From Hoeflea sp. (GTDB lineage Bacteria > Pseudomonadota > Alphaproteobacteria > Rhizobiales > Rhizobiaceae), in assembly GCF_014359905.1 (NCBI RefSeq), contig NZ_JACIYP010000025.1, forward strand, positions 1 to 56,210: a stretch of DNA of 56,210 nt, given 5' to 3'. A program made the translations under genes and the position numbers. Each line of letters begins with the position of its first letter. Position 1 is the stretch's first letter. Below the pieces are notes generated by a model that was not told where the DNA came from, did not search any database, and worked only from the letters and a program-made list of their open reading frames with translations. Shown here piece after piece: positions 15,963 to 35,414 of the stretch.

Positions 15963-16034
15963 GTTATTTTCGCTAAGCAATAGATATGGTCTATCTATTT
16001 TCGTTGTCTTCAATTCGGATCCACCTTCCCGTCC

Positions 16035-16059
16035 ACCATATCGCTGTCAGCGATATGGT
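16035..16059. repeat. Perfect 11-bp inverted repeat
   Basis: ACCATATCGCT-GTC-AGCGATATGGT. Both arms are exact and the loop is three bases. No T run follows, so it is not a standard terminator. It lies between tRNA-Thr and the IS remnant, in a stretch (15963-16150) where I see no gene. Confidence 0.7.
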
Positions 16060-16149
16060 TGCTGCATTTGAATTCGAATCCTACCCCCTTCGCGCACCAA
16101 AGGCGGAATTTCCCAAGTTTTTGATAGATAAGTTTTTCAAGGCTGGACG

Positions 16150-16594: not shown

Positions 16595-16703
16595 TATGGA
16601 CAACACATTTCTTATTCTTTAGCCTGATTGAAGATACTAAATAAAGCAGGCTTTTTACCTGGTTCGCGAAGGTAAGTCGGGAACAGCATATGGGGCTTGA
16701 CGA

Positions 16704-17459: not shown

Positions 17460-17470
17460 AGGCATTGATT

Positions 17471-17488
17471 CCTATCGATTCCGATAGG
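17471..17488. promoter_or_regulatory. 18-bp palindrome, lux-box-like operator candidate
   Basis: CCTATCG-ATTC-CGATAGG is a perfect 7+4+7 palindrome with the CT-N12-AG spacing common to boxes of LuxR/TraR-type proteins. It follows the luxR stop codon and precedes the TPS fragment and RTX gene. It lacks a T run, so a terminator is less likely, though not excluded. Confidence 0.5.
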
Positions 17489-17588
17489 TGTCCTCCTCAC
17501 TCAAGTTACTGCTAAATGCGTAAGCCGCGCAATGATAGCGCGTCGGTCCATATTCGGCCCGGTATGCGTGAGTTCTTGGGGAGCAGAT

Positions 17589-17960
17589 ATGATGGTCAAG
17601 GGTTTGGCTCGGGGTGCACGATCACGACACATCAAGATTTCGCTTTCCAGCCTCGCGCTCACCCTTTCATCGTTTCCCTACTCCGCTGCGCAAGATGCCC
17701 TGCCGACAGGGACAAGCGTCATCTCCGGGCAGGTGGCGATCTCCTCGCCTTCATCCTCATCGCTGCTGATTGATCAATCCTCTGCTGGCGCGATTATCGA
17801 GCGGGGCGGGTTCTCTGTTGGAAGCGGCAATGCGGTGCATTTTGCCAAGGGCTCTGGCGCAATGCTGAACCGGGTCACCGGTGTCAATGTATCGGCAATC
17901 GACGGCCGCCCGACGGCGACAGGCTCTCGGCGGCCCCTGTTCTTAATGGAAGTGCTCTAA
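17589..17960 (+). pseudogene. Truncated two-partner-secretion adhesin (FHA-type TPS domain fragment)
   Basis: A frame of 123 residues opens with a basic, then hydrophobic signal-like segment (HIKISLSSLALTLSSFPYS) and continues with the start of a filamentous-haemagglutinin secretion domain: SGQVAISSPSSSSLLIDQSS, GGFSVGSGNAVHFAKGSGA, LNRVTGVNVSAIDGRPTATG. In intact proteins this is followed by an NPNGI/V motif and hundreds to thousands of residues; here the frame turns into unrelated sequence after TATG and stops. No TpsB transporter is nearby. ATG 17589 has GGGAG upstream. The stop is directly followed by the RTX gene ATG (TAAATG), so the fragment may now mostly serve as a translated leader for the next gene. 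Confidence 0.75.
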
Positions 17961-20234
17961 ATGCAAAAAATCACCTATGACTACTATCAGTTCGATCAAG
18001 CTATAAGCCACGACAAGAATATCTATTCCGCTATCGTGGCGGATTACGTCACTGAGGCGGACATTCCTGGAAACGCGGTGGCCGGAAAAACAACTACTAT
18101 TACAAATGAGCTTGGTTATCTGTACGACGAACATCTTCAATATTACGGTGATTTGTATGGCGGGGATGTTGTGCCGTATGCCCCGTCTGCTTCTTTCATT
18201 TATGCGCTGGATTTAAACGACAGCGGCTACTCCTTTAAAATCTATGCCGATGTACCAGAATTTCCAGATATTAACGATTATGTCGATGATTCATACGGAT
18301 ATTTTTCACAGGCTAATGCGGCTTTTTCCAACTATATGTCTGCCGTCAGCGCTTGGTATCTTGAGATTGGCGTCCTGCCGGTAACTCGGGTGACACTCGA
18401 AAAGGAACTCGTCGGACCAGTTGCAACGATCACCGCAGCCGAGCCAATTACCATATTTGATCTGCTTCCCATCGCTTACGATGGCAGTGCCGAGGGTGTG
18501 TTCGAATTTGATACAGAAGTGATTGGCACCGAGAAAGGAGATTCGCTGAAGACCGATGTTGGCGACGATATCCTGGATGGCCGCGCCGGCGACGATATTC
18601 TGGATGGTGGCGTTGGGGCAGACGAGATGTCGGGCGGCAAGGGGGACGACACCTACCATGTCGACAATTCAGCAGATGTGGTCGTGGAATTGGCTGATGA
18701 GGGTACTGATACTGTCATCAGCTCTATCACTAGGACACTCAGCGACAACGTCGAAAACCTCACGCTCACCGGTACGCTCAATATCATTGGTACGGGCAAC
18801 AGCCTTGACAACGTGATCACCGGCAATGATGGCGACAATCAACTCGACGGTCTCGACGGCAACGATATTCTGGATGGTGGCGCCGGCGCAGACCAGATGA
18901 ACGGCGGTTTTGGTGATGACACCTATTATGTCGACGATTCCCAAGATGTGGTCATTGAAGATTGGGATTTGCTTGGGGGCACTGATACCGTTTTCAGCAC
19001 GGTAACATTTACTCTGGGCGCCAATGTCGAAAAACTCGAGCTCATTGGCAACGCGAACATTGATGGCACGGGTAACAGCGGTGCCAACACCATCAAAGGC
19101 AATGATGGCGACAATGTCCTCGACGGTCGAGGCGGCGCTGACCAGATGTTTGGCGGCGCGGGCAATGACACCTATGGCGTCGACAATGCCGGTGACAAGA
19201 TCGTCGAGAATGCCGGCGAAGGCATCGACACGGTGTACAGTTCGGTCACATATTGGCTCTGGACGCAGAGCCAGCACATCGAAAACCTGGTGCTGACCGG
19301 CACCGTCAATATCGACGGCACCGGCAACGGCCTTGCCAACACGATCACCGGCAATTCGGGCAGCAACGTTCTCAATGGCGGCGCCGGCGCGGACAACATG
19401 CGCGGCGGGGCGGGCAACGACACCTATGTCGTCGATCACGCCGGCGACACGATCACCGAGGTTGCTGACGACGGCACGGACACGGTCCAGAGTTCGGTCA
19501 CCTATGCGCTGTATCTGCAAGGCCAGCACATCGAGAATTTGACACTCACGGGTACGGGCAACATCAACGCTATTGGCAATACCCTCGGCAATATTCTCAC
19601 CGGCAACAGCGGCCTCAATGTTCTCGTCGGTGGCGCTGGTGATGACACCTATGTGGTTCAGAATACAGGCGATACAGTTGTTGAGTATGCGAACCAGGGC
19701 TCGGATACAGTTCTGAGTTCGGTTTCCTACGCGCTGTATCTCCAAAGCCAGCACATCGAGAACCTCACATTGACCGGAGCCGCCACTATTTCAGGTGTCG
19801 GAAACGCGCTTGACAACACCATCACCGGGAACGCCGGGAACAACGTGCTGAATGGCGGGGCGGGGGCGGACATCATCATTGGCGGCCTCGGGGCCGACCA
19901 GCTTGCAGGTGGAAGTGACAGCGATATCCACCGCTATCTGAGCCTCACCGATTCCACCGTGGCTGTTGCAGGTCGTGATACGATCACGGAGTTTGTCAGG
20001 GGGGCGGACCTGATCGACCTGAGCGAGCTGGACGCCAAGACAAGCCCGGGCAATGCTGGCGATGATGCTTTCACCTGCATCGGAAGCAGCGCTTTCACCG
20101 GTGCGGCAGGCGAGCTCAACTTCATCAATAATGTCATCTCAGGTGATGTGAACGGTGACAGTGTCGCCGACTTTGCCATAAACCTGACGCCGGGCATTGT
20201 TGCTGGGCTGGATGCAGGCGATTTCATTCTGTAG
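17961..20234 (+). CDS. RTX-repeat protein with serralysin-type C-terminal domain
   Basis: 757 residues. Residues 1-200 are unlike anything I can name, rich in Tyr, Asp and Ser. From about residue 205 there are five repeats of roughly 84 residues, each with calcium-binding nonapeptides (GGAGADNMRGGAGNDTYVV), then a DTV.SSVTY strand segment and ENLTLTGT.NI.GTGN. The fifth copy lacks one nonapeptide. The end (TITEFVRGADLIDLSELDA, GDVNGDSVADFAINL) is the M10 serralysin C-terminal domain that carries type I secretion signals. It is therefore probably exported and calcium-folded; no enzymatic domain is recognised, so adhesin or biofilm matrix protein is the likeliest role. No type I secretion genes are in the window. 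The TPS fragment ends one base before its ATG. Confidence 0.85.
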   Translation: MQKITYDYYQFDQAISHDKNIYSAIVADYVTEADIPGNAVAGKTTTITNELGYLYDEHLQYYGDLYGGDVVPYAPSASFIYALDLNDSGYSFKIYADVPEFPDINDYVDDSYGYFSQANAAFSNYMSAVSAWYLEIGVLPVTRVTLEKELVGPVATITAAEPITIFDLLPIAYDGSAEGVFEFDTEVIGTEKGDSLKTDVGDDILDGRAGDDILDGGVGADEMSGGKGDDTYHVDNSADVVVELADEGTDTVISSITRTLSDNVENLTLTGTLNIIGTGNSLDNVITGNDGDNQLDGLDGNDILDGGAGADQMNGGFGDDTYYVDDSQDVVIEDWDLLGGTDTVFSTVTFTLGANVEKLELIGNANIDGTGNSGANTIKGNDGDNVLDGRGGADQMFGGAGNDTYGVDNAGDKIVENAGEGIDTVYSSVTYWLWTQSQHIENLVLTGTVNIDGTGNGLANTITGNSGSNVLNGGAGADNMRGGAGNDTYVVDHAGDTITEVADDGTDTVQSSVTYALYLQGQHIENLTLTGTGNINAIGNTLGNILTGNSGLNVLVGGAGDDTYVVQNTGDTVVEYANQGSDTVLSSVSYALYLQSQHIENLTLTGAATISGVGNALDNTITGNAGNNVLNGGAGADIIIGGLGADQLAGGSDSDIHRYLSLTDSTVAVAGRDTITEFVRGADLIDLSELDAKTSPGNAGDDAFTCIGSSAFTGAAGELNFINNVISGDVNGDSVADFAINLTPGIVAGLDAGDFIL
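18593..19866 (+). repeat. Five in-frame tandem repeats of about 252 bp inside the RTX gene
   Basis: Repeat units begin near 18593, 18863, 19113, 19365 and 19617, with the C-terminal domain starting near 19842. Spacings are about 270, 250, 252, 252 and 225 bases. The shortened last step equals 252 minus 27, exactly one nonapeptide. Units one and two share long identical runs at the DNA level (for example GATATTCTGGATGGTGGCG), indicating recent copying. Confidence 0.8.
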
Positions 20235-20261
20235 GAGAAACAGTAACTGGTGGCTCCTACA
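20230..20261. terminator. Hairpin after the RTX gene
   Basis: TGTAGGAG and CTCCTACA form a perfect 8-base stem around the RTX stop codon, with a smaller CAGT/ACTG stem in the loop. It lies between two convergent genes and could act on either; there is no T run. Confidence 0.3.
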
Positions 20262-20269
20262 GCGCCGCG

Positions 20270-20815
20270 TCATGGTCGCGGCGGCTCGATCAAAATGCTG
20301 CCGAGCACTTCGATGTCCTTAGGCCCGGCGCGGATGACCAGCACTTCGCCCGAACGGGTGAACTCACCGGTCAGCGCGGAAATATTGACCTGATGGCTAA
20401 CCAGAAAGACCAGGCCGGGCTGCTCGGCGATCAGCGCCCTTGTGGCCTCGGTCTGGCTGTCGCGCGTCGAGACATCGCCGAAGAACGAGTTGAGCGCCGG
20501 GACCTCGGTGACCGGGCCAAGCTTCAGCAATTGGGCGGTCTCGCGCGTCCGGCACCATTGCCCGGTGAAGACATGGTCAAAGACGATGCCGCGCGCCCGG
20601 AACGCATCCCCGATCGATCGGGCCTGCTCTCTTCCCGCTTCATTCAGATTGCGCTGTGTCGAACAGTCGCCCAGATCGAAGCCGGCCGGATCGCCGGTGC
20701 CCGGCGCCAGTGCGTGGCGCATGATCGCGACGGCGCCGGGCTGATCAAGTGCGGCCCAGTCATTGGCCGATGCGGCCGCAGGCCAGAATAAGGCAATGAA
20801 GATTATCCAGCGCAT
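20270..20815 (-). CDS. Exported histidine phosphatase family protein
   Basis: 181 residues. The first 17 (MRWIIFIALFWPAAASA) look like a cleaved signal peptide, so the protein is periplasmic. The catalytic RH motif is in GAVAIMRHALAPGTGDP; GREQARSIGDAFRARG and the second catalytic His in FLVSHQVNISALTG complete the histidine phosphatase pattern. The second Arg/His environment is shorter than in phosphoglycerate mutases, as in the small SixA/PhoE-like exported group. The substrate is unknown. ATG 20815 is chosen for the signal peptide and an AGGGA upstream. It converges on the RTX gene. An 8-base stem (CACCTCGC/GCGAGGTG) lies at 20849-20872, and no gene is visible between 20816 and 21109. Confidence 0.82.
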   Translation of the reverse strand: MRWIIFIALFWPAAASANDWAALDQPGAVAIMRHALAPGTGDPAGFDLGDCSTQRNLNEAGREQARSIGDAFRARGIVFDHVFTGQWCRTRETAQLLKLGPVTEVPALNSFFGDVSTRDSQTEATRALIAEQPGLVFLVSHQVNISALTGEFTRSGEVLVIRAGPKDIEVLGSILIEPPRP

Positions 20816-21618: not shown

Positions 21619-22989
21619 TCAGCCCAGCACTTCCTTGACGGCGTCCGCCATCGCCGAGACCACGGTGTCGGCCTCCTCGCGGCTGAGGCACAAGGGCGGC
21701 GCGAAGCCGATGATGTCGCCTTGCGGCATGGCGCGGGCGATGACGCCGCGCTTCAGGAGTGCCGCGGCGATCGCCGGGCCGGTCTTCTTGGCCGGATCGA
21801 AGAACACCCGGTTGTCCTTGTCGTCGACCAGTTCGACAGCGCAGAGCATGCCTTCGCCGCGCACGTCGCCCACATGCTTGTGGCTGCCGACAGCCTCGGT
21901 CATGGCGGTGTTGAAATAGGCGCCGGTCTCGCCGGCGTTGGCGACGAGGCCCAGATCATCGATCACCTTGAGATTGGCGACGCCCGCCGCCGCCCCGATC
22001 GGATGGGCCGAATAGGTCCAGCCATGGCCGATGGCGCCGTATTCATCGGTGCCCTGTTCGAGCACTTTCCAGACATCCTTCGAGATGATCGATCCCGACA
22101 GCGGCGCGTAGGCCGAGGTCAGGCCCTTGGCGATGGTGATGATGTCGGGTTCGATGCCGTAATGGGTCGAGCCCATCATCGTGCCGAGCCGTCCGAAGCC
22201 GGTCACCACCTCATCGGCGACCAGGAGAATGTCGTGTTTCTTCAGCACCTTCTGGATCGCTGCCCAGTAGCCCGCGGGCGGCGGCACGATGCCGCCGGTA
22301 CCCAGAACCGGCTCGCCGATGAAGGCGGCGATGGTGTCGGCGCCCTCGCGCTCGATCATGGCTTCGAGTTCGTTTGCGCAATGAGCGACGAACTGGGCTT
22401 CGGACTGCGCAAGATCGGCGCGGCGATAGTAATAGGGCGCCTCGGTGTGCAGCACCTGGTTGAGCGGCAGGTCGAATTTCTTGTGGAACAGCTCGAGGCC
22501 GGTGAGCGAGCCGGTCATCAGGCCCGAGCCGTGATAGCCGCGCCAGCGCGAGATGATCTTCTTCTTCTCGGGCCGGCCCAGAATGTTGTTGTAGTACCAG
22601 ATCAGCTTGACATTGGTCTCGTTGGCGTCCGAGCCCGAAAGGCCGAAATAGACCCGGCTCATGTTGTCCGGCGCCCGGTCGATGACCATCTTGGCGAGCG
22701 TCACCGAGGCTTCGGTGCCGTGCCCGACATAGGAATGGTAATAGGCGAGTTCCTTGGCCTGGGCGGCGATCGCCTCGGCCACTTCCTGGCGGCCATAGCC
22801 GATATTGACGCAGTAGAGCCCGGCAAAGGCGTCGAGCAGCCGATTGCCCTCGCGGTCGGTGATGTAGACGCCCTTGCCACCGGTGACGATGCGGTTCTTG
22901 ATCTCACCCCGGGCGAACTGGGCAAGGTGGGTGGAGGGGTGGAAAAAGTGATCGTGATCCCACTGGTCCAGCTGGTCATTGCGCAACAT
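21619..22989 (-). CDS. doeD: Class III aminotransferase, diaminobutyrate aminotransferase of ectoine breakdown
   Basis: 456 residues, a PLP-dependent class III (omega) aminotransferase. The PLP Lys lies in DIITIAKGLTSAYAPLSG, the Asp contacting PLP in LLVADEVVTGFGRLG, and the substrate region in FGLSGSDANETNVKLIWYY. By sequence alone GABA- or putrescine-pyruvate aminotransferase is equally possible. Context decides: with the dehydrogenase and AsnC-type regulator genes beside it and the ectoine operon beyond, it corresponds to the aminotransferase (doeD/atf) that turns L-2,4-diaminobutyrate into aspartate semialdehyde. It follows doeC by 24 bases on the same strand. Confidence 0.85.
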   Translation of the reverse strand: MLRNDQLDQWDHDHFFHPSTHLAQFARGEIKNRIVTGGKGVYITDREGNRLLDAFAGLYCVNIGYGRQEVAEAIAAQAKELAYYHSYVGHGTEASVTLAKMVIDRAPDNMSRVYFGLSGSDANETNVKLIWYYNNILGRPEKKKIISRWRGYHGSGLMTGSLTGLELFHKKFDLPLNQVLHTEAPYYYRRADLAQSEAQFVAHCANELEAMIEREGADTIAAFIGEPVLGTGGIVPPPAGYWAAIQKVLKKHDILLVADEVVTGFGRLGTMMGSTHYGIEPDIITIAKGLTSAYAPLSGSIISKDVWKVLEQGTDEYGAIGHGWTYSAHPIGAAAGVANLKVIDDLGLVANAGETGAYFNTAMTEAVGSHKHVGDVRGEGMLCAVELVDDKDNRVFFDPAKKTGPAIAAALLKRGVIARAMPQGDIIGFAPPLCLSREEADTVVSAMADAVKEVLG

Positions 22990-23013: not shown

Positions 23014-24513
23014 TCATGCCCAGTCGCGGCATACATATTTGACGTCGGTGAAGGCTTCCATGCCAAGGCGCGAGCCTTCGCGTTCGAGGCCCGATTGTTT
23101 CATGCCGCCGAAGGGGATCGGCGCGCCGGTGACCTTGGTGCGGTTGACCGCGACCATGCCGAACTGCAGTGCCCGGCTGGCGCGGTAGATGCGGCGCGGA
23201 TCCTGGGTGTGCAGATAGGCGACGAGGCCGTATTCGGTGTCGTTGGCCCGCTCAAGCGCTTCCTCCTCGGTGTCGAAGGCGGCGATCGCGGCGACCGGGC
23301 CGAATGTTTCCTCCTGCATGATAAGCGCGTCAGTGGGCACGTCGGCGAGCACGGTCGGCTCGAAGAACAGCGGACCGGCCTTGTGCCGCTTGCCGCCGGT
23401 GAGCAACCGCGCGCCCCTCGCAAGCGCGTCGCGCACATGCTCCTCCTGCTTGGCCACCGCCTTCTCGTTCATCAGCGGGCCGATGTCGGGGTCGTCCATG
23501 CCGATGCCGACCGACAGTTTCGATGCGGCTTCGGCAAACTTCGCGCAGAACGTCTCATAGACCGGGCGCTGGACCAGGAACCGGTTGGCGCCAAGGCAAT
23601 CCTGTCCGGAGGTGGCGAACTTGGCCTTGATGGCTTCCTCCACTGCCTGTTCGGGATTGGCGTCGGCAAACAGCAGGAACGGCGCATGGCCGCCGAGCTC
23701 CAGCACCATCCGCTTCACCGTGTCGGCGCTCCGCCTGTAGAGCAGCTTGCCGATCTCGGTGGAGCCGGTGAACGAGACCGCGCGCACGCGCCTGTCGGTC
23801 ATCCAGGGCTCGACAACCACCGGGGCGACGCCGGTCACGACGTTGAAGGCGCCGGCCGGAAAACCGGCGCGCTCGGACAGCTCGGCCAGCGCCAGCGCCG
23901 AATAGGGCGTCTCTGCCGACGGATGCGCCACAACGGTGCAGCCGGCGGCAAGCGCTGCGGCTGCCTTGCGGGTCAGCATCGCGGACGGGAAGTTCCAGGG
24001 CGTGATCAGCGCCGCCACGCCGACCGGCTCGCGCCAGATCTCGACCTCGGCGTCGGGCAGGTGCGACGTCACGCTCTCGATGTTGGGGCGCTTGGCTTCC
24101 TCGGAGAAGAACTCGACGAAGGAGGCGGCGTATTCGATCTCGCCACGCGCTTCGGAGATCGGCTTGCCCTGCTCGAGCACCATGATCCGCGCCAGATCCT
24201 GCGTGTTTTCGAGGATCAGCTCGAACCATCGCCGCAGGATCTTCGCGCGCTGCTGCGGCAGCATCGACGACCAGACGCCGAAGGCGGCCTGTGCGGCTTC
24301 GACGGCGGTGGCGCTGTCGTCCGCCGAAAGGCTCGCGACATCGCCAAGATGGGCGCCGTCGGCGGGATTGGAGACCGGAAAGGTCTTCGACTTCGCGCCG
24401 GCCGTCCAGCGGCCGCCGATATAGGAGAATCCGCGAAACAGGGCCGGATCGGAAAGACCGAGCGGAGTCGCGGCGAAGGGGGATGCTGCGGTATGTTTGC
24501 TGTATTTTGCCAT
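23014..24513 (-). CDS. doeC: Aldehyde dehydrogenase, aspartate-semialdehyde dehydrogenase of ectoine breakdown
   Basis: 499 residues of the NAD(P)-dependent succinate-semialdehyde dehydrogenase type. The N-terminal cofactor domain has ITPWNFPSAMLTRKAAAAL and FTGSTEIGKLL; the catalytic Glu is in LELGGHAPF and the catalytic Cys in SGQDCLGANRF. In ectoine catabolic clusters this enzyme (doeC, also called ssd) oxidises aspartate semialdehyde to L-aspartate. GABA degradation with doeD is the alternative reading, but the ectoine context is complete. ATG 24513 is chosen because family homology begins soon after; upstream in-frame sequence is weak. It lies between doeX and doeD on one strand and is probably cotranscribed with both. 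Confidence 0.87.
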   Translation of the reverse strand: MAKYSKHTAASPFAATPLGLSDPALFRGFSYIGGRWTAGAKSKTFPVSNPADGAHLGDVASLSADDSATAVEAAQAAFGVWSSMLPQQRAKILRRWFELILENTQDLARIMVLEQGKPISEARGEIEYAASFVEFFSEEAKRPNIESVTSHLPDAEVEIWREPVGVAALITPWNFPSAMLTRKAAAALAAGCTVVAHPSAETPYSALALAELSERAGFPAGAFNVVTGVAPVVVEPWMTDRRVRAVSFTGSTEIGKLLYRRSADTVKRMVLELGGHAPFLLFADANPEQAVEEAIKAKFATSGQDCLGANRFLVQRPVYETFCAKFAEAASKLSVGIGMDDPDIGPLMNEKAVAKQEEHVRDALARGARLLTGGKRHKAGPLFFEPTVLADVPTDALIMQEETFGPVAAIAAFDTEEEALERANDTEYGLVAYLHTQDPRRIYRASRALQFGMVAVNRTKVTGAPIPFGGMKQSGLEREGSRLGMEAFTDVKYVCRDWA

Positions 24514-24601
24514 GCCTGATGCTAGCGGCTTGTTGGCAGAGGAATCCTCTGTTGCGCGCCGACCCGCCAGAGAGTTCATCCTTAATCCCCGCGTTGGGGC
24601 G

Positions 24602-25102
24602 TCATTTTGTCTCCGGACCGGTCTCCAGCAACAGATCGAACGGAAGGCCTGCAGAGTGCTTGACCGGCTTGGTGACGATATAGGTGAAATAGCGCGCGAG
24701 GCCCGCGCGCCGCGCCAGCAGATCATCGATCAGGCGCTGATAGCTGTCGATGTCGCGGGTGACGACATGCAGCAGGTAATCGAAACCGCCGCCCAGCGCC
24801 CAGCAGGACAGGATCTCGTCATAGCCGGCGATGGCCACCTCGAAGGCCTGGAAGGTGGCGGCGCGGTGATTGTCGAGTTCGGCCATGACAAACACCGAGA
24901 CCTGCGGCGCGACATTTCTCAGTTCGATGTCTGCGTGGTAGCCGGAAATGATCCCGGCCTTTTCCAGCCGGCTCAGCCGTTCCCAGCAGGGCGTGGCGCT
25001 CAGATTGACCCGCTTGGCCAGATCCGACTTCGAGATCCGGCCCTCCCGCGACAGGATTGCGAGGATCTTGATATCGCGGTCATCGAGCTTGATCGGGGCC
25101 AT
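24602..25102 (-). CDS. doeX: Lrp/AsnC-family regulator of ectoine breakdown
   Basis: 166 residues. The N-terminal winged helix-turn-helix (LDDRDIKILAILSREGRISK, then LAKRVNLSATPCWERLSRLE) is followed by the RAM ligand domain. AsnC-type DoeX is a usual member of ectoine gene clusters and in Halomonas binds next to doeA; its ligand is not firmly known. Here it is the first gene of the doeX-doeC-doeD unit and starts only 65 bases from the divergent enuR, so both regulators share one promoter region. The gap to doeC is 88 bases. Confidence 0.85.
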   Translation of the reverse strand: MAPIKLDDRDIKILAILSREGRISKSDLAKRVNLSATPCWERLSRLEKAGIISGYHADIELRNVAPQVSVFVMAELDNHRAATFQAFEVAIAGYDEILSCWALGGGFDYLLHVVTRDIDSYQRLIDDLLARRAGLARYFTYIVTKPVKHSAGLPFDLLLETGPETK

Positions 25103-25164: not shown

Positions 25165-25175
25165 ATCATGACAAT
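25165..25175 (+). promoter_or_regulatory. Candidate EnuR operator at the enuR start
   Basis: ATCATGACAAT overlaps the enuR start codon. Near-identical copies occur in the uehA promoter at 26648-26656 (minus strand, ATCATGACA) and 26704-26714 (ATCATAACAAT). The position suits autorepression and could also affect the divergent doeX promoter. Confidence 0.5.
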
Positions 25176-26556
25176 TTGGCCTCCGAAATCCGACGAGCTC
25201 CGCCGCCCTGCCTACAAATCGCTCGCCGATACACTTGTCCGGGCTGTCGATGCCGGGGAATTGCGCAGCGGCGACCGGTTGCCGACCCATCGCAATCTGG
25301 CCAATGATCTGGGGCTCAGCGTCCAGACGGTGAGCCGCGCCTATGATGAGCTGATCCGCCGCGGCGTCATCGCCGGCGAGGTCGGGCGCGGCACCTTTGT
25401 CCGGGCCGGCCGCAGCGACACCAAGACCCCCTATGTGCCCGACAGCCAGAACGAGACATTCATCGATTTCTCGATCCTGATGCCGGTGTTCGAGCCGATG
25501 CATCTTGCGGCAATGAAGCAGGCACTGACGAAGCTTGGTGCGGATCTGCCGGTGTCGACCGTGTCGGCCTTCCGGCCCTCCACGGCGTTGAGGAAATACA
25601 ATGGCGCCGCTGAGAAATGGCTGGCGCGGTGCGGCCTTGTGCCGGGCAGCCAGGGCCTGTTGATGACCAACGGCAACACCGCGGCGATGACAATTGCCTT
25701 GATGACGGCGGCCGGGGTCGGCGACCTGATCGTGACCGAGGAACTGGGGCACCACACGCTCAAGGCGCTCACGCGCTATCTCGGTCTGCGGATCCAGGGA
25801 CTGGAGACCGATGCGCAGGGCATAGTTCCTGCGGCCTTTGCCGCCGCCTGCCGGAAATCGCCGGTCAAGGCCATCTATCTCATGCCGTCAGGCTTGAACC
25901 CGCGCGCGTTGACGATGCAGGTCGAGCGGCGCGCAGAGCTTGTCGCGATTGCCCGGCGCCACGATGTGCTGATCATCGAGAACGACGCCTGGGGGCCGCT
26001 GCAGCCCGGCAGGCCGGCCCCGATCGCGGCAATCGCGCCGGAACGCACCTTCTATTTCACCAGTCTGACCAAATGCATCATGCCCGGGCTGCGCTTTGGC
26101 TATCTCACCATGCCCGAGGCGTTTGAATCGGCGGTCGCCAACCGGCATCTGGTCACCAACTGGATGGCCACGCCGCTGATGGCGGAGATCGCCAGCCGGT
26201 GGATTGACGACGGCACCGCCGAACGTCTGCTCGAATGGCAGATGGACGCGCTTGGCGCGCGCAATCGCCTCGCTGCCCGGGTGCTTTCGGATACTCCGTT
26301 TCTGGCGAGCCCCAACGGGATGCACATCTGGCTGCCGATGCCGGGATCGTGGACCGAGGAGGCCTTCGTGGCCCATTCGCGGCTGAACGGCGTGGCTATC
26401 GCCCCCGGCTCGGCGTTTGAAATGTCGCCCACCGTGCGCAACCACGGCGTCCGCATTTGCCTCGGCGCCGAAACCCTGCAGACGCTGGAGCGGGGTCTGG
26501 CGATCATAGCGCGTCTGGCGCGCAGCAATCCGGAGCCTGCCCTGCTGACGCTGTGA
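25168..26556 (+). CDS. enuR: EnuR, MocR-type regulator of ectoine catabolism
   Basis: 462 residues. A GntR-type winged helix (LPTHRNLANDLGLSVQTVSR) at about 35-65 is joined to an aminotransferase-fold domain, the MocR layout. The PLP-binding Lys is Lys302 in FTSLTKCIMPGLRFG, the same position reported for EnuR of Ruegeria pomeroyi; Asp273 in ENDAWGPL contacts the cofactor. EnuR is a repressor released by the pathway intermediates alpha-acetyl-diaminobutyrate and diaminobutyrate bound through PLP. Its placement before uehABC matches the Ruegeria arrangement. ATG 25168 overlaps the candidate operator. Confidence 0.93.
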   Translation: MTIWPPKSDELRRPAYKSLADTLVRAVDAGELRSGDRLPTHRNLANDLGLSVQTVSRAYDELIRRGVIAGEVGRGTFVRAGRSDTKTPYVPDSQNETFIDFSILMPVFEPMHLAAMKQALTKLGADLPVSTVSAFRPSTALRKYNGAAEKWLARCGLVPGSQGLLMTNGNTAAMTIALMTAAGVGDLIVTEELGHHTLKALTRYLGLRIQGLETDAQGIVPAAFAAACRKSPVKAIYLMPSGLNPRALTMQVERRAELVAIARRHDVLIIENDAWGPLQPGRPAPIAAIAPERTFYFTSLTKCIMPGLRFGYLTMPEAFESAVANRHLVTNWMATPLMAEIASRWIDDGTAERLLEWQMDALGARNRLAARVLSDTPFLASPNGMHIWLPMPGSWTEEAFVAHSRLNGVAIAPGSAFEMSPTVRNHGVRICLGAETLQTLERGLAIIARLARSNPEPALLTL

Positions 26557-26882
26557 GGCCGGCCGGGCCTGCTGCGATCGATCGTACTTCGCCACGGGTT
26601 TCACCGCGCCAAGCGTGTTGCAACGCGACTGGGCGGACTCATCAAAATGTCATGATAAAATTATCGCATTGACTCTTGATTGTCCTTGTTTCACCTTTAG
26701 AAAATCATAACAATAAATCGGGGAGCGATTTCAATACACATCCGATGCGCTGGACCGAACCGAGGCGCCAGCTGTTTGACGCTGTGAGGGGAAGCCGATT
26801 GGGCCGCCCCGCATCATTTTCCATCGGCCGATTGGCCGGAAAATCGAAGACATCAAATAAAGAAAAACGAGAGGAACCAGAT
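26557..26882 (+). promoter_or_regulatory. uehA promoter region
   Basis: A 326-base AT-rich gap in a GC-rich window. It contains TTGACT at 26669-26674, a possible -35 element without a convincing -10 partner at standard spacing, and two candidate EnuR sites in opposite orientation at 26648-26656 and 26704-26714, flanking it. No protein-coding signal is seen. Confidence 0.55.
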
Positions 26883-27902
26883 ATGACATCCACATTCCGC
26901 ACTTTGCTCGGTGGCGCAGCCGCTGCAGCACTCCTGGCCGCCGGCACGATGGCCGCACAGGCCGACAGCTGGAAATACGCGTTCGAGGAATCCCTGACCG
27001 AAGTTCAGGGCGTCTACGCGACCAAGTTCAAGGAAGCCATCGAGGCCAATTCCGACCATACGCTTGAGCTCTAACCCTATGGCACGCTCGGCGAATCGGC
27101 CGACATCATGGAACAGGCCCAGGCCGGCATCCTGCAGTTCGTTGACCAGTCACCCGGCTTCACCGGCGCGCTGATCCCGGAAGCCCAGGTCTTCTTCGTG
27201 CCCTATCTGCTGCCGACCGACCAGAACCACCTTGCCCGCTTCTTCAAGGAGAGCAAGGCGATCAACGAGGATTTCGAGGAACTCTACGCCGAGCAGGGGC
27301 TTGAGCTGCTGGTGATGTTCCCGGAAGGCGAAGTGGCGATGACCACCAAGGAGCCGGTCAGGAGCTGCGAGGACCTCAACGAGGTCAAGTTCCGCGTCAT
27401 GACCAATCCGCTGCTGGTGGAATCCTACAAGGCCTTTGGCGCGACGCCGACGCCGCTTCCATGGGGCGAAGTCTATGGCGGCCTGCAGACCAACATCATC
27501 CAGGGCCAGGAAAACCCGACCTTCTTCCTCTACTCGACCAAGCTCTATGAGGTGACCGACCACATCACCTACACGGGCCACAACAACTTCACCACCGCGG
27601 TGATGGCCAACAAGGACTTCTTTGACGGCCTTGGCGACGAGGACAAGAAGGTCATCGAGGACGCTGCAGCCTCGGCCTTCGACTACATTGTCGAGTACCA
27701 GAAGGGCCTGGCCGACAGCGAGCTCAAGAAGATCATGGAAGCCAAGCCGGAAATGACCGTGACCGTGCTGACGGAAGAAGAGCGCGCCTGCTTCAAGGAA
27801 GCTGCCGTCGACGTCGAGAAGACCTTCATTGAAATGACCGGCGACAGCGGCAAGGCCATCCTCGATCAGCTGAAGGCCGACCTGGAAGCAACCAAGAACT
27901 GA
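26883..27902 (+). pseudogene. uehA: Ectoine TRAP transporter binding protein, interrupted by a TAA at codon 64
   Basis: The full frame would give 339 residues. A signal peptide (first 27 residues, ending AQA) precedes the DctP-type binding protein. With that cleavage, Glu9, Phe66, Arg144, Trp167, Asn184 and Phe188 of the mature protein, all ligand contacts known in Ruegeria UehA, are present at exactly those positions. However codon 64 (27072-27074) is TAA where the family has Tyr or Phe (LEL-stop-PYGTLGES), one base away from the Tyr codon TAC. There is no frameshift, and the frame continues intact for 275 codons. Either the strain is a uehA mutant or the base is a sequencing error. Reinitiation at Met76 (27108) could not give an exported protein. 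ATG 26883 has GAGGAA upstream. Confidence 0.9.
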
Positions 27903-28027: not shown

Positions 28028-28606
28028 TTGGACGAGCCAAAGCAAATCGATCCGCACGAATCGTCGCTGCCGGGTTTGTTGGGGACAATCGATTCAACCA
28101 TCAGCCGGGTGGAATCGGTTCTGCTCGCTGCCGGCGTTCTGCTGATGGCGATCAACACCATCGCCAATGTCGTCGGACGCTTCGTGTTTCAAAACAGCCT
28201 ATTCTTTTCCGGCGAGCTCAACCGCATCCTGATCATTCTCATCACCTTCGCCGGCATCAGCTATGCCGCGCGCCAGGGCCGCCACATCCGCATGTCGGCA
28301 ATCTATGATGCGATGCCGTCGCCGGCGCGCAAGGGATTCATGATCCTCATTGCCTCGGTAACCGCGGTTGCGATGTTCGGGCTTTGCTATTTTTCCATCG
28401 GCTACATCACCAAGGTGGCGACCTCGGGGCGCTTGCTGCCGTCGCTGCAAGTGCCGGTCTACTGGATCTTTCTCTGGGTGCCCGTCGGTTTTTTCATGAC
28501 CGGCCTCCAATACGCGCTCACAGCCATCAAGAACATCGTGTCGAAGGACATCTACCTCTCGACGCGCGTGCTTGAAGGCTACGACAACGACGAACTTGAA
28601 ATCTAG
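28028..28606 (+). CDS. uehB: Ectoine TRAP transporter small membrane subunit
   Basis: 192 residues with four membrane segments, the DctQ-type small subunit. The conserved region [18 protein letters not shown] lies after the second segment. It starts with TTG at 28028, supported by GGGAGG at the right distance; no better ATG exists upstream. The charged C-terminal tail ([12 protein letters not shown]) is cytoplasmic. It pairs with UehC, 11 bases downstream, for sodium-driven import of ectoine and 5-hydroxyectoine delivered by UehA, whose gene is interrupted here. Confidence 0.9.
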
Positions 28607-28617
28607 GGAAGCGATTA

Positions 28618-29901
28618 ATGGCCACGACCATTTTCCTGATCATGATCGTTTTGCTGCTTCTCGGCTTCCCGATGATGATTCCGCTGCTTGTCGCCACCTT
28701 TGTCGGCTTCATCTTCCTGTTCGGCGACATCGGCCGGATGGACTTCATGGTCCAGCAGATGATGGCGGGCATCCGCCCGGCGTCGCTGATCGCGGTGCCG
28801 ATGTTCATCCTGGCCGCCGACATCATGACCCGCGGTCAGTCGGCCGACCGGCTGATCGACATGGTGATGAAATTCATCGGCCATATCAAAGGCGGGCTCG
28901 CCGTCAGCACCGCCGCGGCCTGCACGCTTTTCGGCGCGGTGTCGGGATCGACCCAGGCGACGGTTGTCGCCGTCGGCTCGCCGCTGAGGCCTCGCATGCT
29001 CAAGGCGGGCTACAAGGATTCCTTCGTCCTGGCGCTGATTATCAATGCGTCCGACATCGCCTTCCTGATCCCGCCGTCGATCGGCATGATCATCTATGGC
29101 GTGATTTCCAGCACCTCGATTTCGGAGCTGTTCATCGCCGGCATCGGTCCCGGGCTTTTGCTGCTGGTTCTGTTTTCGGCCTACAGCATGATCTACGCCA
29201 CCATCAAGGGCGTGCCCACCGAGCCCAAGGCGAGCTGGGCCGAGCGCGGGGAATCGGTCAAGCGGGCGATCTGGCCGCTCGGATTTCCGGTGATCATCGT
29301 CGGCGGCATCTATGGCGGCATCTTCAGCCCGACCGAGGCCGCCGCCGTCTGCGTGCTCTATGCGATCATCCTCGAATTCCTCGTCTTCAGGTCGCTGAAT
29401 CTTCCCGACATCTACCGGATCGCCAAATCTACAGGCCTGATCACCGCGGTGGTGTTCATTCTTGTTGGCGCGGGGGCTGCCTTTTCCTGGGTGATCTCGT
29501 TCGCCCAGGTTCCGCAGGAGATCCTGGCAGCCGTCGGCATCGCCGACATGGGGCCCAAGGGCGTGCTGGCGGTGATCTCGATCGCCTTCTTTATCGGCTG
29601 CATGTTTGTCGATCCGATCGTGGTCATCCTGATCCTGGTTCCGATCTTCGCGCCGGTGGTCAATTCGGTGGGGCTCGATCCGGTGCTGGTGGGTACCATC
29701 ATCACGCTGCAGGTGGCGATCGGATCGGCCACGCCGCCCTTTGGCTGTGACATCTTCACCGCGATCGCGATCTTCAAGAGGCCCTATATCGAGGTCATAC
29801 GCGGCATTTTCCCGTTCACGGTGATGCTGCTGTCGGTCTCTGTCGCCCTCATTTATTTCCCGCAAATCGCGTTGTTCCTGCGCGACCTTGCATTCCGGTA
29901 A
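28618..29901 (+). CDS. uehC: Ectoine TRAP transporter large membrane subunit
   Basis: 427 residues with about twelve membrane segments, the DctM-type subunit that carries the transport channel. Typical stretches are FGAVSGSTQATVVAVGSPL near residue 105, LIPPSIGMIIYGVISSTSI near 145, and GCMFVDPIVVILILVPIFAP near 330. It is intact and in frame. With UehB it forms the membrane complex; without a functional UehA the complex would lack its substrate supply unless another binding protein substitutes. Confidence 0.93.
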   Translation: MATTIFLIMIVLLLLGFPMMIPLLVATFVGFIFLFGDIGRMDFMVQQMMAGIRPASLIAVPMFILAADIMTRGQSADRLIDMVMKFIGHIKGGLAVSTAAACTLFGAVSGSTQATVVAVGSPLRPRMLKAGYKDSFVLALIINASDIAFLIPPSIGMIIYGVISSTSISELFIAGIGPGLLLLVLFSAYSMIYATIKGVPTEPKASWAERGESVKRAIWPLGFPVIIVGGIYGGIFSPTEAAAVCVLYAIILEFLVFRSLNLPDIYRIAKSTGLITAVVFILVGAGAAFSWVISFAQVPQEILAAVGIADMGPKGVLAVISIAFFIGCMFVDPIVVILILVPIFAPVVNSVGLDPVLVGTIITLQVAIGSATPPFGCDIFTAIAIFKRPYIEVIRGIFPFTVMLLSVSVALIYFPQIALFLRDLAFR

Positions 29902-29913
29902 CGGAGTAGATCC

Positions 29914-30351
29914 ATGTTCGAACGAATTCTGGTTGCGGTCGACGGGTCGGAGGGGTCCAAGAAGGCCCTGAGACTCGCCTCGAAACTGCAGCAGACCTGT
30001 GACAGCGAGTTGATGATCCTGACCGTTTTCCGGCACCACTCGCTGCTCGAGGCGTCGATGTCGATGGTTCGTCCGGATGATCCTCAAAACCTTGACGACG
30101 CCATGCGCGGCTACGCCAAGGAGGTGGCCGAGGAAGCCAAGAAGATCGCGGCGGAAGCGGGAGCGTCCAGGATCCGCGCCTTTGTCAAGGGCGGGCAGCC
30201 GGCCCGGATGATCGTCAAATTCGGCGAAGAACACAAGGCGGACCTGATCATCGTCGGCAGCCGCGGACAGGGCGACGTGCAGGGGTTCCTGCTCGGTAGC
30301 GTGTCGCACAAGGTGACCAGCCTCGCGAAAATTCCGGTGATGGTGGTCTGA
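29914..30351 (+). CDS. Universal stress protein of the ectoine TRAP operon
   Basis: 145 residues, one UspA domain. The ATP-binding motif (VGSRGQGDVQGFLLGSVS) is complete, so it belongs to the nucleotide-binding class. A Usp gene beside an ectoine TRAP transporter is known from Halomonas (TeaD), where the ATP-binding protein tunes the transporter, and from Ruegeria uehABC-usp. It starts 12 bases after uehC. Confidence 0.9.
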   Translation: MFERILVAVDGSEGSKKALRLASKLQQTCDSELMILTVFRHHSLLEASMSMVRPDDPQNLDDAMRGYAKEVAEEAKKIAAEAGASRIRAFVKGGQPARMIVKFGEEHKADLIIVGSRGQGDVQGFLLGSVSHKVTSLAKIPVMVV

Positions 30352-30408: not shown

Positions 30409-31206
30409 ATGAGCGAGGAGTTGGTCAAGCTGTCGGGGGAACAGGTCCGGTTCAACGACCGTGACGCGACCGCGCGGTTCGGACTGATCGCGCTTGCCAC
30501 CGACATGACCAGCGAGCGCGATCTCTACCGGCAATTGCCGCAGGACCATGTCGCCATTCACGTCACAAGGGTGGCGTTCGAGAACCCGACGACGCCGGAC
30601 AATTTGCGCAAGATGACGCCGCGCCTTATCGAAGCGGCGGCCCTGCTCGAACCGCTGCAGCCCCTGAAAGCCATCTGCTACAGCTGCACCGCGGCTTCCG
30701 TGGTGATCGGCGATGCCGAGGTGACGGCGGCGATCCGGCAATCTGCGGGCAATGTGCCGGTGGTGACGCCGGCGGGGGCGGCGCGCCTGGCGTTTTCGGC
30801 TCTGGGTGCCAAACGTCTTGCGATTCTCACGCCCTACACGGTCGCCACAAGCCAGCCGATGGCGGAGTATTTCGCCCGCCACGGCATGGAAATCCTGAGC
30901 TTCGAGTGCCTCGGCCTTGAGGATGACCGCGATATGGCGCGGGTCCGTGACGAGAGCATCGTCGCGGCGGCGCTCGCCGTCGACAGGCCGGACGCCGAAG
31001 CGCTGTTCCTGTCCTGCACCGGCCTGCCTGCGATCAACGTCATCGCCGAGATCGAACGGCGGCTCGGCAAGCCGGTCGTCACCTCCAATCAGGCGAGCGC
31101 CTGGGCGATGACCCGGCTTGGCGGATTTCATGATCACAAGCCGGCGGAATATGGCCGGCTGTTTGACTGCGCGCTGCCCGCCCAGGCCTTCGGAGACGCC
31201 GCATGA
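30409..31206 (+). CDS. eutA: EutA, Asp/Glu racemase-like protein of hydroxyectoine breakdown
   Basis: 265 residues of the Asp/Glu racemase (maleate isomerase-like) family. The two opposed active-site Cys are in ICYSCTAASVVIGD and ALFLSCTGLPAINV. EutA, EutB and EutC together are thought to convert 5-hydroxyectoine to ectoine; the single steps are inferred from families, not from the sequence. ATG 30409 has AGGGGAG upstream. The stop overlaps the eutB start (ATGA), so the two are translationally coupled. Confidence 0.9.
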   Translation: MSEELVKLSGEQVRFNDRDATARFGLIALATDMTSERDLYRQLPQDHVAIHVTRVAFENPTTPDNLRKMTPRLIEAAALLEPLQPLKAICYSCTAASVVIGDAEVTAAIRQSAGNVPVVTPAGAARLAFSALGAKRLAILTPYTVATSQPMAEYFARHGMEILSFECLGLEDDRDMARVRDESIVAAALAVDRPDAEALFLSCTGLPAINVIAEIERRLGKPVVTSNQASAWAMTRLGGFHDHKPAEYGRLFDCALPAQAFGDAA

Positions 31207-32207
31207 GCCCACAGCAACCCTTTGTCGATCTCGGCGAGATCGAGCAGGCGCGGCTGGCGATTGCCGGCACGGTGCGGCTGACGCCTGTCAATCTGTCACC
31301 GTCGCTCTCCGATCTCATCGGCCAGCCGGTGCATCTCAAGCTGGAGCACACCCAGATCACCGGCAGCTTCAAGCTGCGCGGCGCGACCAATGCGGTAGCG
31401 TCCCTGTCCGAGGACGAGAAGCGCCGCGGCGTGGCCGGCGTTTCAACCGGCAATCACGGGCGCGGGCTTGCCTACGCGGCGAAGGCCGCGGGCGTGACAT
31501 GCATCATCTGCATGTCGAAGCTGGTGCCGCAGGCCAAGATCGACGGCATCCGGGCCCAGGGCGCCGAGGTGCGCATCATCGGCCGGTCCCAGGACGAGGC
31601 CCAGGAGGAGGTCGACCGGCTGGTTTCCGAAGAAGGACTGACCATGATCCCGCCCTTCGATCACCGCGCGGTCATCGCCGGCCAGGGCACGCTCGGGCTC
31701 GAGATCCTCGACCAGATTCCCGATGTGGCGACCGTGCTGGTGCCGCTGTCGGGCGGCGGGCTGATCTCCGGCGTGGCCGCCGCGCTCAAGGCGCGCCGCC
31801 CCGCGATCCGGGTGATCGGCGTCTCCATGGAGCGCGGGGCGGCGATGCATGAATGCCTGAAAGCCGGCAGGCCGGTGCCTGTCGAGGAACTGGCGACGCT
31901 GGCCGATTCGCTCGGCGGCGGCATCGGGCTCAACAACAAGCTCACCTTCGCCATGACCCGCGACCTGGTCGACGAGGTGGTGCTGGTGAGCGAAGCGGAA
32001 ATCGCCCTAGCCATCCGCCACATCTACTGGCAGGAGCGCCAGATCGTCGAGGGCTCGGGAGCGGTCGGCGTGGCCGCGCTGCTCAAGGGCAAGATCGCGA
32101 GCGCCGGTCCGGTCGTCTCCATCCTCAGCGGCGGCAATATCGACATGACCCAGCACTTCCGCATCATCTCCGGCGAAGACGTCGACGTCACCAGGGAGGC
32201 GGCCTGA
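31203..32207 (+). CDS. eutB: EutB, threonine-dehydratase-like enzyme of hydroxyectoine breakdown
   Basis: 334 residues, a fold II PLP enzyme. The PLP Lys is in ITGSFKLRGATNAVASL, the substrate loop in GVSTGNHGRGLAYAAKAAG, and the phosphate-binding loop in LVPLSGGGLISGVAAALK. It lacks the regulatory domain of biosynthetic threonine dehydratase, so it is a catabolic type. Its role with EutA and EutC on hydroxyectoine is taken from the conserved cluster. It overlaps eutA by four bases and ends one base before eutC. Confidence 0.91.
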   Translation: MSPQQPFVDLGEIEQARLAIAGTVRLTPVNLSPSLSDLIGQPVHLKLEHTQITGSFKLRGATNAVASLSEDEKRRGVAGVSTGNHGRGLAYAAKAAGVTCIICMSKLVPQAKIDGIRAQGAEVRIIGRSQDEAQEEVDRLVSEEGLTMIPPFDHRAVIAGQGTLGLEILDQIPDVATVLVPLSGGGLISGVAAALKARRPAIRVIGVSMERGAAMHECLKAGRPVPVEELATLADSLGGGIGLNNKLTFAMTRDLVDEVVLVSEAEIALAIRHIYWQERQIVEGSGAVGVAALLKGKIASAGPVVSILSGGNIDMTQHFRIISGEDVDVTREAA

Positions 32208-32208
32208 C

Positions 32209-33201
32209 ATGGCCCTGATCAAGATCCTCACCGAAGCCGATCTCCGCCGTGCGTTGGCGCTGGATCTCGACGCGATCGCCTGTGTCGAGGACGCGTTTGC
32301 GGCGCTCGCAACCGGCGAGGTGGTGATGCCGCCGATCCTGTCGATGGCGATTGCGCCCTTCAACGGCGAGGTCGACGTCAAGACCGCCTTCGTGCCCGGC
32401 ATCGACAGCTTCGCCATCAAGATCTCGCCGGGCTTCTTCGACAATCCGAAGCTGGGCCTGCCCAGCACCTCGGGCCTGATGGTGCTGTTTTCAGCGCGGA
32501 CCGGCATGCTCGAGGCGCTGCTGCTCGACAATGGCTATCTCACCGATGTGCGCACCGCAGCCGCAGGCGCGGTCGCGGCCCGGCATCTCGCGCGCGCCGA
32601 CGCCTCCACAGCCTGCATTCTGGGCGCGGGCTGCCAGGGCCGGCTACAGCTCAAGGCGCTGACCCTGGTGCGGCCGATCCGGTCCGCCACCATCTGGGCG
32701 CGCGATGCTGCAAAAGCGGCGGTGGCGGCGACCGAGATGACCCAGGAGCTCGGCATCGAGGTGCGGGCGGCGCAGGATCCCGCGAGCGCGGCGGCCGAGG
32801 CCGACATCATCGTCACCACGACGCCCGCGACGACGCCGGTGCTTGAGGCCGACTGGCTCAGGCCGGGGCAGCACATCACCGCCATGGGCTCGGATCAGGA
32901 CCACAAGAACGAGATCGATCCCGCCTGTTTCGCCAAGGCCGATCTCTATGTGCCCGACCGGCTGTCGCAGACACGGCTGATGGGCGAGCTGAGAACGGCA
33001 ATTGCCAGCGGCGTCGTCGACGCGCGCGCCGAGTTCGCCGAGCTGGGCGCCGTCGTCTCGGGCAAGGCTCCGGGCCGCGTGTCCGACGACGCCATCACCC
33101 TCGCCGATCTGACCGGAACCGGTGTCCAGGACACGGCGATCGCCACCTTTGCCTTGAGCCGGGCGCTGATGCTTGAAGCCGGCGCCGATTTTTCAAACTG
33201 A
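32209..33201 (+). CDS. eutC: EutC, ornithine-cyclodeaminase-like enzyme of hydroxyectoine breakdown
   Basis: 330 residues of the ornithine cyclodeaminase / mu-crystallin family. The NAD-binding fold has ACILGAGCQGRLQLKAL near 135-150, and GSDQDHKNEIDP carries the catalytic-region Asp. It has AGGGAGG before ATG 32209 and sits one base after eutB. With EutA and EutB it should act in turning 5-hydroxyectoine into ectoine; the exact reaction cannot be read from the sequence. Confidence 0.9.
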   Translation: MALIKILTEADLRRALALDLDAIACVEDAFAALATGEVVMPPILSMAIAPFNGEVDVKTAFVPGIDSFAIKISPGFFDNPKLGLPSTSGLMVLFSARTGMLEALLLDNGYLTDVRTAAAGAVAARHLARADASTACILGAGCQGRLQLKALTLVRPIRSATIWARDAAKAAVAATEMTQELGIEVRAAQDPASAAAEADIIVTTTPATTPVLEADWLRPGQHITAMGSDQDHKNEIDPACFAKADLYVPDRLSQTRLMGELRTAIASGVVDARAEFAELGAVVSGKAPGRVSDDAITLADLTGTGVQDTAIATFALSRALMLEAGADFSN

Positions 33202-33230: not shown

Positions 33231-34418
33231 ATGTCCGCGCCAGCACTCAATTTCAGCCGGGACGAATATGCGCAAAGACTTGCCAGGACACGCGACGCTA
33301 TGGCCAAGGCCGGGGTCGATGTCATCATCGTGTCCGATCCCTCCAACATGGCCTGGCTCACCGGCTATGACGGCTGGTCCTTCTATGTGCACCAGTGCGT
33401 GGTGGTCGGCCCCGATGGCGATCCGGTCTGGTTCGGCCGCGGCCAGGACGCCAACGGCGCGCGCCGGACGTCCTATCTCTCCGAAAGCACGATCATCGGC
33501 TATGCCGACCAGTATGTGCAGTCGACCGAGCGCCATCCGATGGATTATCTCGCTGCCAAGCTCGATGAGCGGGGATGGGGGGGCAAGCGCATCGGCGTCG
33601 AGATGGACAATTACTGGTTTTCGGCCGCTGCCTTCGCGTCGCTGCAAAAGCACCTGCCGAACGCCAAGTTCTCCGACGTCACGGCGCTGGTCAACTGGCA
33701 GCGCGCGGTGAAATCGAGCCAGGAGCTCGACTACATGCGCAAGGCTGCGCGCCTGGTCGAGCGCATGCACCAGACCATCGTCGACAAATGCGAGGTCGGC
33801 TACCGCAAATGCGATCTGGTCGCCGACATCTATGAGGCGGGCCTTCGCTACGATGACCGGTTGGGCTTCGGCGGCGACTATCCGGCGATTGTCCCGTTGC
33901 TGCCCTCGGGCGCGGATGCGTCTGCGCCGCACCTGACCTGGGACGACCAGCCGATGAAGAGCGGCGAGGGCACGTTCTTCGAGATTGCCGGCGTCTACAA
34001 GCGCTACCATTGTCCGCTGTCGCGCACCCTGTTCCTGGGCAAGCCGACGCAGACCTTCATCGATGCCGAGAAGGCCGTGCTCGAAGGCATGGATGCGGGG
34101 CTCGAAGCCGCCAAGGCCGGAAACCTCTGCGAGGACATCGCGATCGCCTTCTTCAAGGTGCTCACCAAATACGGAATTACCAAGGACAACCGCACCGGCT
34201 ATCCGATCGGTCTGTCCTATCCCCCGGACTGGGGCGAGCGCACCATGTCGCTGAGGCCCGGCGACAAGACCGTGCTCGAGGAAAACATGACCTTCCACTT
34301 CATGACGGGGCTGTGGATGGATGACTGGGGCTTTGAAATCACGGAAAGCATCGTCATTGGCAAAACCGGGCCGGAGTGCCTGGCCAATGTGCCCCGCCGG
34401 ATGTTTGTAAAGGACTGA
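33231..34418 (+). CDS. doeA: Ectoine hydrolase DoeA (EutD)
   Basis: 395 residues with the creatinase-like layout of the M24 family: an N-terminal domain to about residue 165 (DPSNMAWLTGYDGWSFYVHQ) and a C-terminal pita-bread domain with GFGGDYPAIVPLLPSG, FFEIAGVYKRYHCPLSRT and ENMTFHFMTGLWMDDWG. DoeA opens the ectoine ring to give mainly N-alpha-acetyl-L-2,4-diaminobutyrate, the intermediate sensed by EnuR. AGAAAGGAA precedes ATG 33231. It is followed six bases later by doeB, the next enzyme of the pathway. Confidence 0.93.
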   Translation: MSAPALNFSRDEYAQRLARTRDAMAKAGVDVIIVSDPSNMAWLTGYDGWSFYVHQCVVVGPDGDPVWFGRGQDANGARRTSYLSESTIIGYADQYVQSTERHPMDYLAAKLDERGWGGKRIGVEMDNYWFSAAAFASLQKHLPNAKFSDVTALVNWQRAVKSSQELDYMRKAARLVERMHQTIVDKCEVGYRKCDLVADIYEAGLRYDDRLGFGGDYPAIVPLLPSGADASAPHLTWDDQPMKSGEGTFFEIAGVYKRYHCPLSRTLFLGKPTQTFIDAEKAVLEGMDAGLEAAKAGNLCEDIAIAFFKVLTKYGITKDNRTGYPIGLSYPPDWGERTMSLRPGDKTVLEENMTFHFMTGLWMDDWGFEITESIVIGKTGPECLANVPRRMFVKD

Positions 34419-34424
34419 TCCCAA

Positions 34425-35414
34425 ATGGCCGGCAATCCGATTGTTCCGACAATACCGCTGCACGAGGATGGCGCTCATCACGGCTTCCTCCGGCTGCCCT
34501 ACAGCCGTGATGATTCCGCCTGGGGATCGGTGATGATCCCCATCACCGTCATCAAGAACGGCGTGGGGCCGACGGCGCTGCTCACCGGCGCCAACCATGG
34601 CGATGAATATGAAGGCCCCATCGCGCTGATGGAGCTGGCGGTGACGCTGAAGCCCGAGGATATCGAGGGCCGCGTGATCATCGTGCCGGCCATGAACTAT
34701 CCGGCGTTTCGGGCCGGCACCCGCACCTCGCCGATCGACCGGGGCAACATGAACCGGTCGTTTCCGGGGTCGCCAAGCGGGACGGTCACGGAAAAGATTG
34801 CGGATTATTTCCAGACCGTTCTGTTGCCGGAGGCGAGTATCGTGCTCGACTTCCATTCAGGCGGCAAGACGCTGGACTTCATACCCTTCGCCTCCGCCCA
34901 TGTGCTGGAAAACAAGGAACAGCAGGCTGCCTGCGTCGCCGCCGTGGAAGCCTTCAACGCACCCTACTCGATGATCATGCTCGAGATCGACACTGTGGGA
35001 ATGTATGACACGAGCGTCGAGGACCAGGGCAAGGTCTTCGTCACCACCGAACTGGGCGGCGGCGGCACCTCGACGGCGCGCTCGAACGCCATTGCCAAGA
35101 AGGGCGTGCGCAACGTGCTCAAGCATGCGGGCATCATGAAGGGGGAGCTCGAGACCGCGCCCTCGGTGATGCTGGACATGCCTGACGACGATTGCTTCGT
35201 GTTCTCTCAGGACGAGGGCGTGTTCGAGGCCATGAAGAATCTCGGCGATCCAGTTGCAAAGGGCGAGTTGGTCGCCCGCGTCTGGCCGGCGGACCGCACC
35301 GGCAGGCCGCCGATCGACTACCGCGCCAACCGGGCAGGCATGCTGGTGTCGCGCCATTGCCCCGGCCTGATCAAGCCGGGAGACTGCATGGCCGTGGTGG
35401 CGGTCACGGTCTGA
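34425..35414 (+). CDS. doeB: N-alpha-acetyl-diaminobutyrate deacetylase DoeB (EutE)
   Basis: 329 residues of the succinylglutamate desuccinylase / aspartoacylase family of zinc enzymes. The zinc motif is in TGANHGDEYEGPIA (His and Glu), with the third ligand in IVLDFHSGGKTLDF and the catalytic Glu region in VTTELGGGGTST. It removes acetate to give L-2,4-diaminobutyrate for DoeD. It is the last gene of the plus-strand ectoine unit and its end overlaps the convergent EamA gene by 11 bases. Confidence 0.92.
   Translation: MAGNPIVPTIPLHEDGAHHGFLRLPYSRDDSAWGSVMIPITVIKNGVGPTALLTGANHGDEYEGPIALMELAVTLKPEDIEGRVIIVPAMNYPAFRAGTRTSPIDRGNMNRSFPGSPSGTVTEKIADYFQTVLLPEASIVLDFHSGGKTLDFIPFASAHVLENKEQQAACVAAVEAFNAPYSMIMLEIDTVGMYDTSVEDQGKVFVTTELGGGGTSTARSNAIAKKGVRNVLKHAGIMKGELETAPSVMLDMPDDDCFVFSQDEGVFEAMKNLGDPVAKGELVARVWPADRTGRPPIDYRANRAGMLVSRHCPGLIKPGDCMAVVAVTV

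Follow-up and report, generated by a model that had tools for sequence, protein, structure and literature searches.

Does an ectoine operon whose first transporter gene, uehA, contains an in-frame stop codon still receive its substrate, and does that stop belong to the living strain or to its assembly? The window analysed here is the complete contig NZ_JACIYP010000025.1 (56,210 bases) of a Hoeflea sp. genome of 6.86 Mb, which is assembled in 552 contigs with an estimated contamination of 8.29%. Reading of the sequence places a TAA at codon 64 of uehA (27072-27074, + strand). A sequence-only reading had left two possibilities, a very recent mutation or a base-calling error; our analyses support that dichotomy and favour the former, to which we assign a probability of roughly 0.7, namely a very recent nonsense mutation in an otherwise intact uehA that would abolish the ectoine-binding protein and, with it, high-affinity ectoine import through UehABC.

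The uehA frame (26883-27902, + strand) opens with an ATG at 26883, runs for 63 codons to the TAA and continues for 275 codons to a TGA at 27900-27902. When the stop is read through, the product contains a DctP domain (PF03480) and matches Ruegeria UehA (PDB 3fxb) over residues 27-339 (a 313-residue match, E = 1.4e-169), as well as the TeaA structures 2vpn/2vpo and 3gyy, confirming the earlier proposal that the sequence flanking the stop encodes a whole TRAP binding protein. Mature numbering was set with Asp28 as residue 1, the position to which chain residue 1 of TeaA 2vpn aligns (offset 27). With this offset all six residues that we take to be the ligand contacts of Ruegeria UehA (Glu9, Phe66, Arg144, Trp167, Asn184 and Phe188) are found at the same mature positions, as had been claimed. 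Only Glu9 lies 5' of the stop and the other five lie 3' of it. Owing to the TAA at codon 64, the gene as assembled does not encode an uninterrupted exported receptor of the UehA/TeaA type. Its 5' fragment (26883-27071, + strand) comprises 63 codons, with a likely signal peptide recognized by inspection and 36 mature residues, and has no Pfam match, while an open reading frame of 264 amino acids downstream of the stop (27108-27902, + strand) matches DctP from profile position 47 onwards (E = 5.6e-56).

The genes around uehA form a recognizable ectoine locus, in which enuR, uehABC, usp and eutABCDE occur together, uehB and usp being assigned through weak profile matches and position. On the + strand, the MocR-type ectoine repressor gene enuR/ehuR (25168-26556; NF052286, 658.3 bits against a cut-off of 480) is followed, upstream of uehA, by a block that is largely conserved in an alignment of five genomes (26640-26720), likely the substrate-inducible promoter/operator. 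The receptor gene is followed by uehB, for the TRAP small permease (28028-28606; weak NF007374 match, 92.7% identical in the nearest relative, G013), uehC, for the large permease (28618-29901; TIGR00786, above cut-off), usp, for a universal stress protein (29914-30351; weak UspG/UspF matches, 94.5% identical in G013), and eutA (30409-31206; TIGR02990, 306.7 bits, just under the cut-off of 318; 88.7% identical in G013). The catabolic genes continue with eutB (31203-32207; TIGR02991), eutC (32209-33201; TIGR02992), the ectoine hydrolase gene eutD, or doeA (33231-34418; TIGR02993, 782.1 bits against 613), and the deacetylase gene eutE, or doeB (34425-35414; TIGR02994), all above their cut-offs. 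On the - strand lie an asnC/lrp-type regulator gene (24602-25102; NF008370, 118.7 bits, below the cut-off of 233), the semialdehyde dehydrogenase gene ssd (23014-24726; TIGR01780, 567.6 bits, below the cut-off of 646.35) and an atf-type aminotransferase gene (21619-22989; NF005684, above cut-off). All of these flanking genes are intact; for eutB to eutE this was judged from frames that stay open and from profile matches over the full length, with a comparison to the relative G008 added for eutD and eutE. The frames being open and conserved, the view that uehBC, usp and the catabolic genes had escaped damage held.

Among the genomes compared, this one alone carries the stop. In the genus, uehA was identified in 10 of 18 genomes (E <= 1e-100), with a single stop, the one described here. 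In the family search, for which genomes were drawn evenly from a larger group and the best five candidates of each were scored, 37 of 394 genomes had a uehA match (E <= 1e-120), and none of the 36 others carried a stop. Likewise, the aligned gene was free of stops in all 89 related loci, eight of which are repeats of the same contigs. The nearest relative retains an intact uehA that is 95% identical. At the position of the stop, the 89 loci have Phe (83) or Tyr (6), with Tyr in G013 and G015 and Phe in G008, and 136 database proteins have Phe in all but one case, a Tyr. No genome or protein of the same species was found, the best matches being 95% and 94% identical; near-identical records were absent among the best 120 listed of 2309 entries (drawn from a capped set of candidates) and among the best 120 listed of 2419, and from plasmids, where nine records reached at best about 80% DNA identity. 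A private stop, intact orthologues and the lack of further decay are what a recent nonsense pseudogene would show, provided that the living genome has the stop.

Sequence divergence gives no sign of relaxed evolution in uehA. Against G013 we obtained dN = 0.027, dS = 0.354 and dN/dS = 0.075; compared with the nine other genus members, the gene has accumulated two private missense and six private synonymous changes, and of the ten terminal branches its own is the shortest. By a simple Poisson estimate, uehA is unlikely to have been neutral for longer than roughly one quarter of this branch (P = 0.042 at a fraction of 0.25), a weak dating bound because the branch is short.

The strongest competitor of a recent mutation, tentative though it is and clearly the less probable of the two, is a base-calling or consensus error, in which case uehA would be intact in the living strain and the stop confined to the assembly. 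A single codon, private to one fragmented assembly with estimated contamination, is at issue, one base decides the matter, and 93 of the 338 sense codons of uehA are one substitution away from a stop. The gene shows no other decay, and at the codon itself an error fits as well as a mutation. Set against this, stop-making changes are few among the possible single substitutions in uehA (108 of 3,042), and bacterial genomes often carry genuine nonsense alleles. Comparison of the window with G013 covered the stretches shared by the two, to which 15966-20281 does not belong, with 46 frames and 14,646 residues, several of these frames being antisense shadows chosen by score over eutB to eutE. No frame break was flagged, and stops were flagged in six frames, uehA included. 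Of the other five, two run antisense to eutB/eutC, two extend a gene upstream of its start, and the last is a pair at the left end of the contig (139-813); judged by position they look like antisense or start artefacts, 139-813 only tentatively so. Set against G015, three frames of the window showed a change of frame, two of them antisense shadows and one lying where the G015 stretch ends. Across the genome, uehA itself is the only one of 17 DctP-type matches with a stop, and none occurs in the 150 ABC-ATPase domains that were scored from 290 candidates of a first look. The assembly is thus not error-rich, since neither a frame break nor another clear fresh stop appeared in the 46 frames and none in the ABC-ATPase domains. 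A mixed genome was also considered, but ribosomal protein S2 is encoded by one gene, so this single marker does not point to a second genome.

Some stretches of the window differ between relatives. Gene order shared with G013 breaks just after a tRNA-Thr (CGT) gene (15887-15962); the following stretch, 15966-20281, has almost nothing at the same place in G013 and about 11.8 kb in G015. It encodes a 757-amino-acid protein with RTX calcium-binding repeats, has no PADLOC match and looks like a variable island. G008 (locus L106) carries about 9.6 kb extra between the end of eutE and the next shared gene. In addition, a stretch of approximately 700 bases absent from G013 contains an open reading frame of 224 amino acids (39944-40618) that matches solely profile positions 317-432 of PF00982 (glycosyltransferase family 20), a family that we take to comprise trehalose-6-phosphate synthases. 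It looks like a remnant of otsA, and with such a fragment in the window the genome does show some decay.

Other supplies of ectoine were sought in the same genome. There is no second UehA, the next match being 29% identical, and the alternative importer EhuB is represented by four weak matches, none above cut-off. Endogenous ectoine was discarded as a substrate: ectoine synthase (EctC) was not found in this genome, and among the 18 genus genomes it occurs in G003 only. Without a second UehA, an EhuB above cut-off or EctC, the operon should lack a substrate if no BCCT or ABC importer provides it. The genome does encode one intact BCCT carrier, and some ectoine might enter through this carrier or through putative ABC importers of osmolytes.

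These surveys bear on an older, adaptive loss, whereby ectoine uptake would have been abandoned in this lineage and the operon kept for another use. EutD exceeds its cut-off in 16 of the 18 genus genomes and EhuB in four; four of the EutD-bearing genomes (G001, G006, G007 and G017) have neither UehA (E <= 1e-100) nor EhuB above cut-off and are possibly ectoine degraders without a recognized importer, so the genus may have lost or replaced its importers more than once. In the present strain, however, uehA shows neither further decay nor relaxed selection and the operon genes are open and conserved, making an older loss improbable here.

Still less probable, and barely credible in our judgement, is a tolerated stop, by which readthrough, an ochre-suppressor tRNA or downstream reinitiation would give a functional UehA: the frame 3' of the TAA is fully conserved, the recovered tRNA inventory is incomplete and in-frame starts are available at 27108 and 27198, but no examined relative carries the stop, TAA terminates 4 of the 45 window open reading frames examined (uehC among them, bearing out the earlier statement that it is an ordinary stop here), no UUA anticodon occurs among the tRNA genes read, and reinitiation products would lack a signal peptide. 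Recoding would be expected to leave an in-frame stop conserved in relatives, and the 36 other matched genomes have none. For the start at 27108 the duplex with the anti-Shine-Dalgarno sequence has an energy of -2.1 kcal/mol, the weakest of ten (the nine other starts range from -4.8 to -11.5), while the GTG at 27198 reaches -4.8, level with uehC; products from both starts are without a signal peptide, by inspection for 27108. Among the 42 tRNA genes read in this genome we found no suppressor of UAA, in a set that is itself incomplete: tRNA-Tyr, tRNA-Ile and tRNA-Ala (TGC) are missing, likely as assembly gaps or threshold losses, an explanation that does not extend to tRNA-Tyr, for which a search with the anticodon-stem pattern returned one two-mismatch site only.

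If the very recent nonsense mutation is real, uehA would yield a short peptide that is exported and carries a single one of the six ligand residues. The 264-amino-acid downstream frame would not serve as a periplasmic receptor because of its missing signal peptide and poor ribosome site. The inducers of the operon derive from imported ectoine, according to PMC8739950. Lack of import would then deprive EnuR of its inducer, and the operon is predicted likely to stay repressed as a further consequence. Moreover, about 825 untranslated bases in the first gene may cause transcriptional polarity, predicted to act on uehBC-usp-eutABCDE. Loss of growth on ectoine is a prediction strengthened by the absence of ectoine synthase and of an EhuB above cut-off and qualified by the BCCT carrier. 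As a precedent, the transposon mutant SPO1147 of uehABC in Ruegeria pomeroyi lost 86.7% of its OD and 62.1% of its drawdown on ectoine (PMC10130141), a strong but not total loss.

A real stop would offer a clean natural way to test whether ectoine enters cells of this Hoeflea lineage by UehABC alone, and how an operon with an importer-derived inducer behaves once the importer is gone. It would also illustrate why, in genome-based predictions, calling a catabolic operon can by itself exaggerate substrate use. If the stop is instead an error, the case counsels caution on pseudogene calls from single draft assemblies.

Among known systems, recent single-nonsense pseudogenes occur in bacterial genomes, and uehA follows the same pattern of one stop and no further decay, with nothing notable that differs; the event is of an ordinary kind. 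A literature search with one set of terms on TRAP transporter pseudogenes broken by a nonsense mutation found no such case. The read-through product shares its ligand residues with R. pomeroyi UehA, and in R. pomeroyi DSS-3 the gene order enuR-uehABC-usp-eutABCDE, as given in PMC5924519, is the same as here. The two systems differ in the nonsense codon in the first transporter gene of the Hoeflea locus, and in the asnC-, ssd- and atf-type genes, which are divergent and upstream here and downstream in R. pomeroyi. TeaA of Halomonas elongata (PDB 2vpn/2vpo, with 3gyy also matching) is a close sequence relative of the UehA described here; unlike UehA, it belongs, according to PMC5924519, to an osmoregulated importer and is not part of a catabolic operon. 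By the count in the same review, 122 of 539 ectoine degraders have no linked importer. If the stop is real, the Hoeflea locus resembles such importer-less clusters in having catabolic genes without a working adjacent importer, and differs from them in that its importer genes are still present, disabled by one codon. It is conceivable, albeit doubtful, that we are looking at a snapshot of the first step towards importer-less clusters, in which the binding protein has been lost by one codon and a silent but complete operon could be reactivated by another carrier, such as the BCCT.
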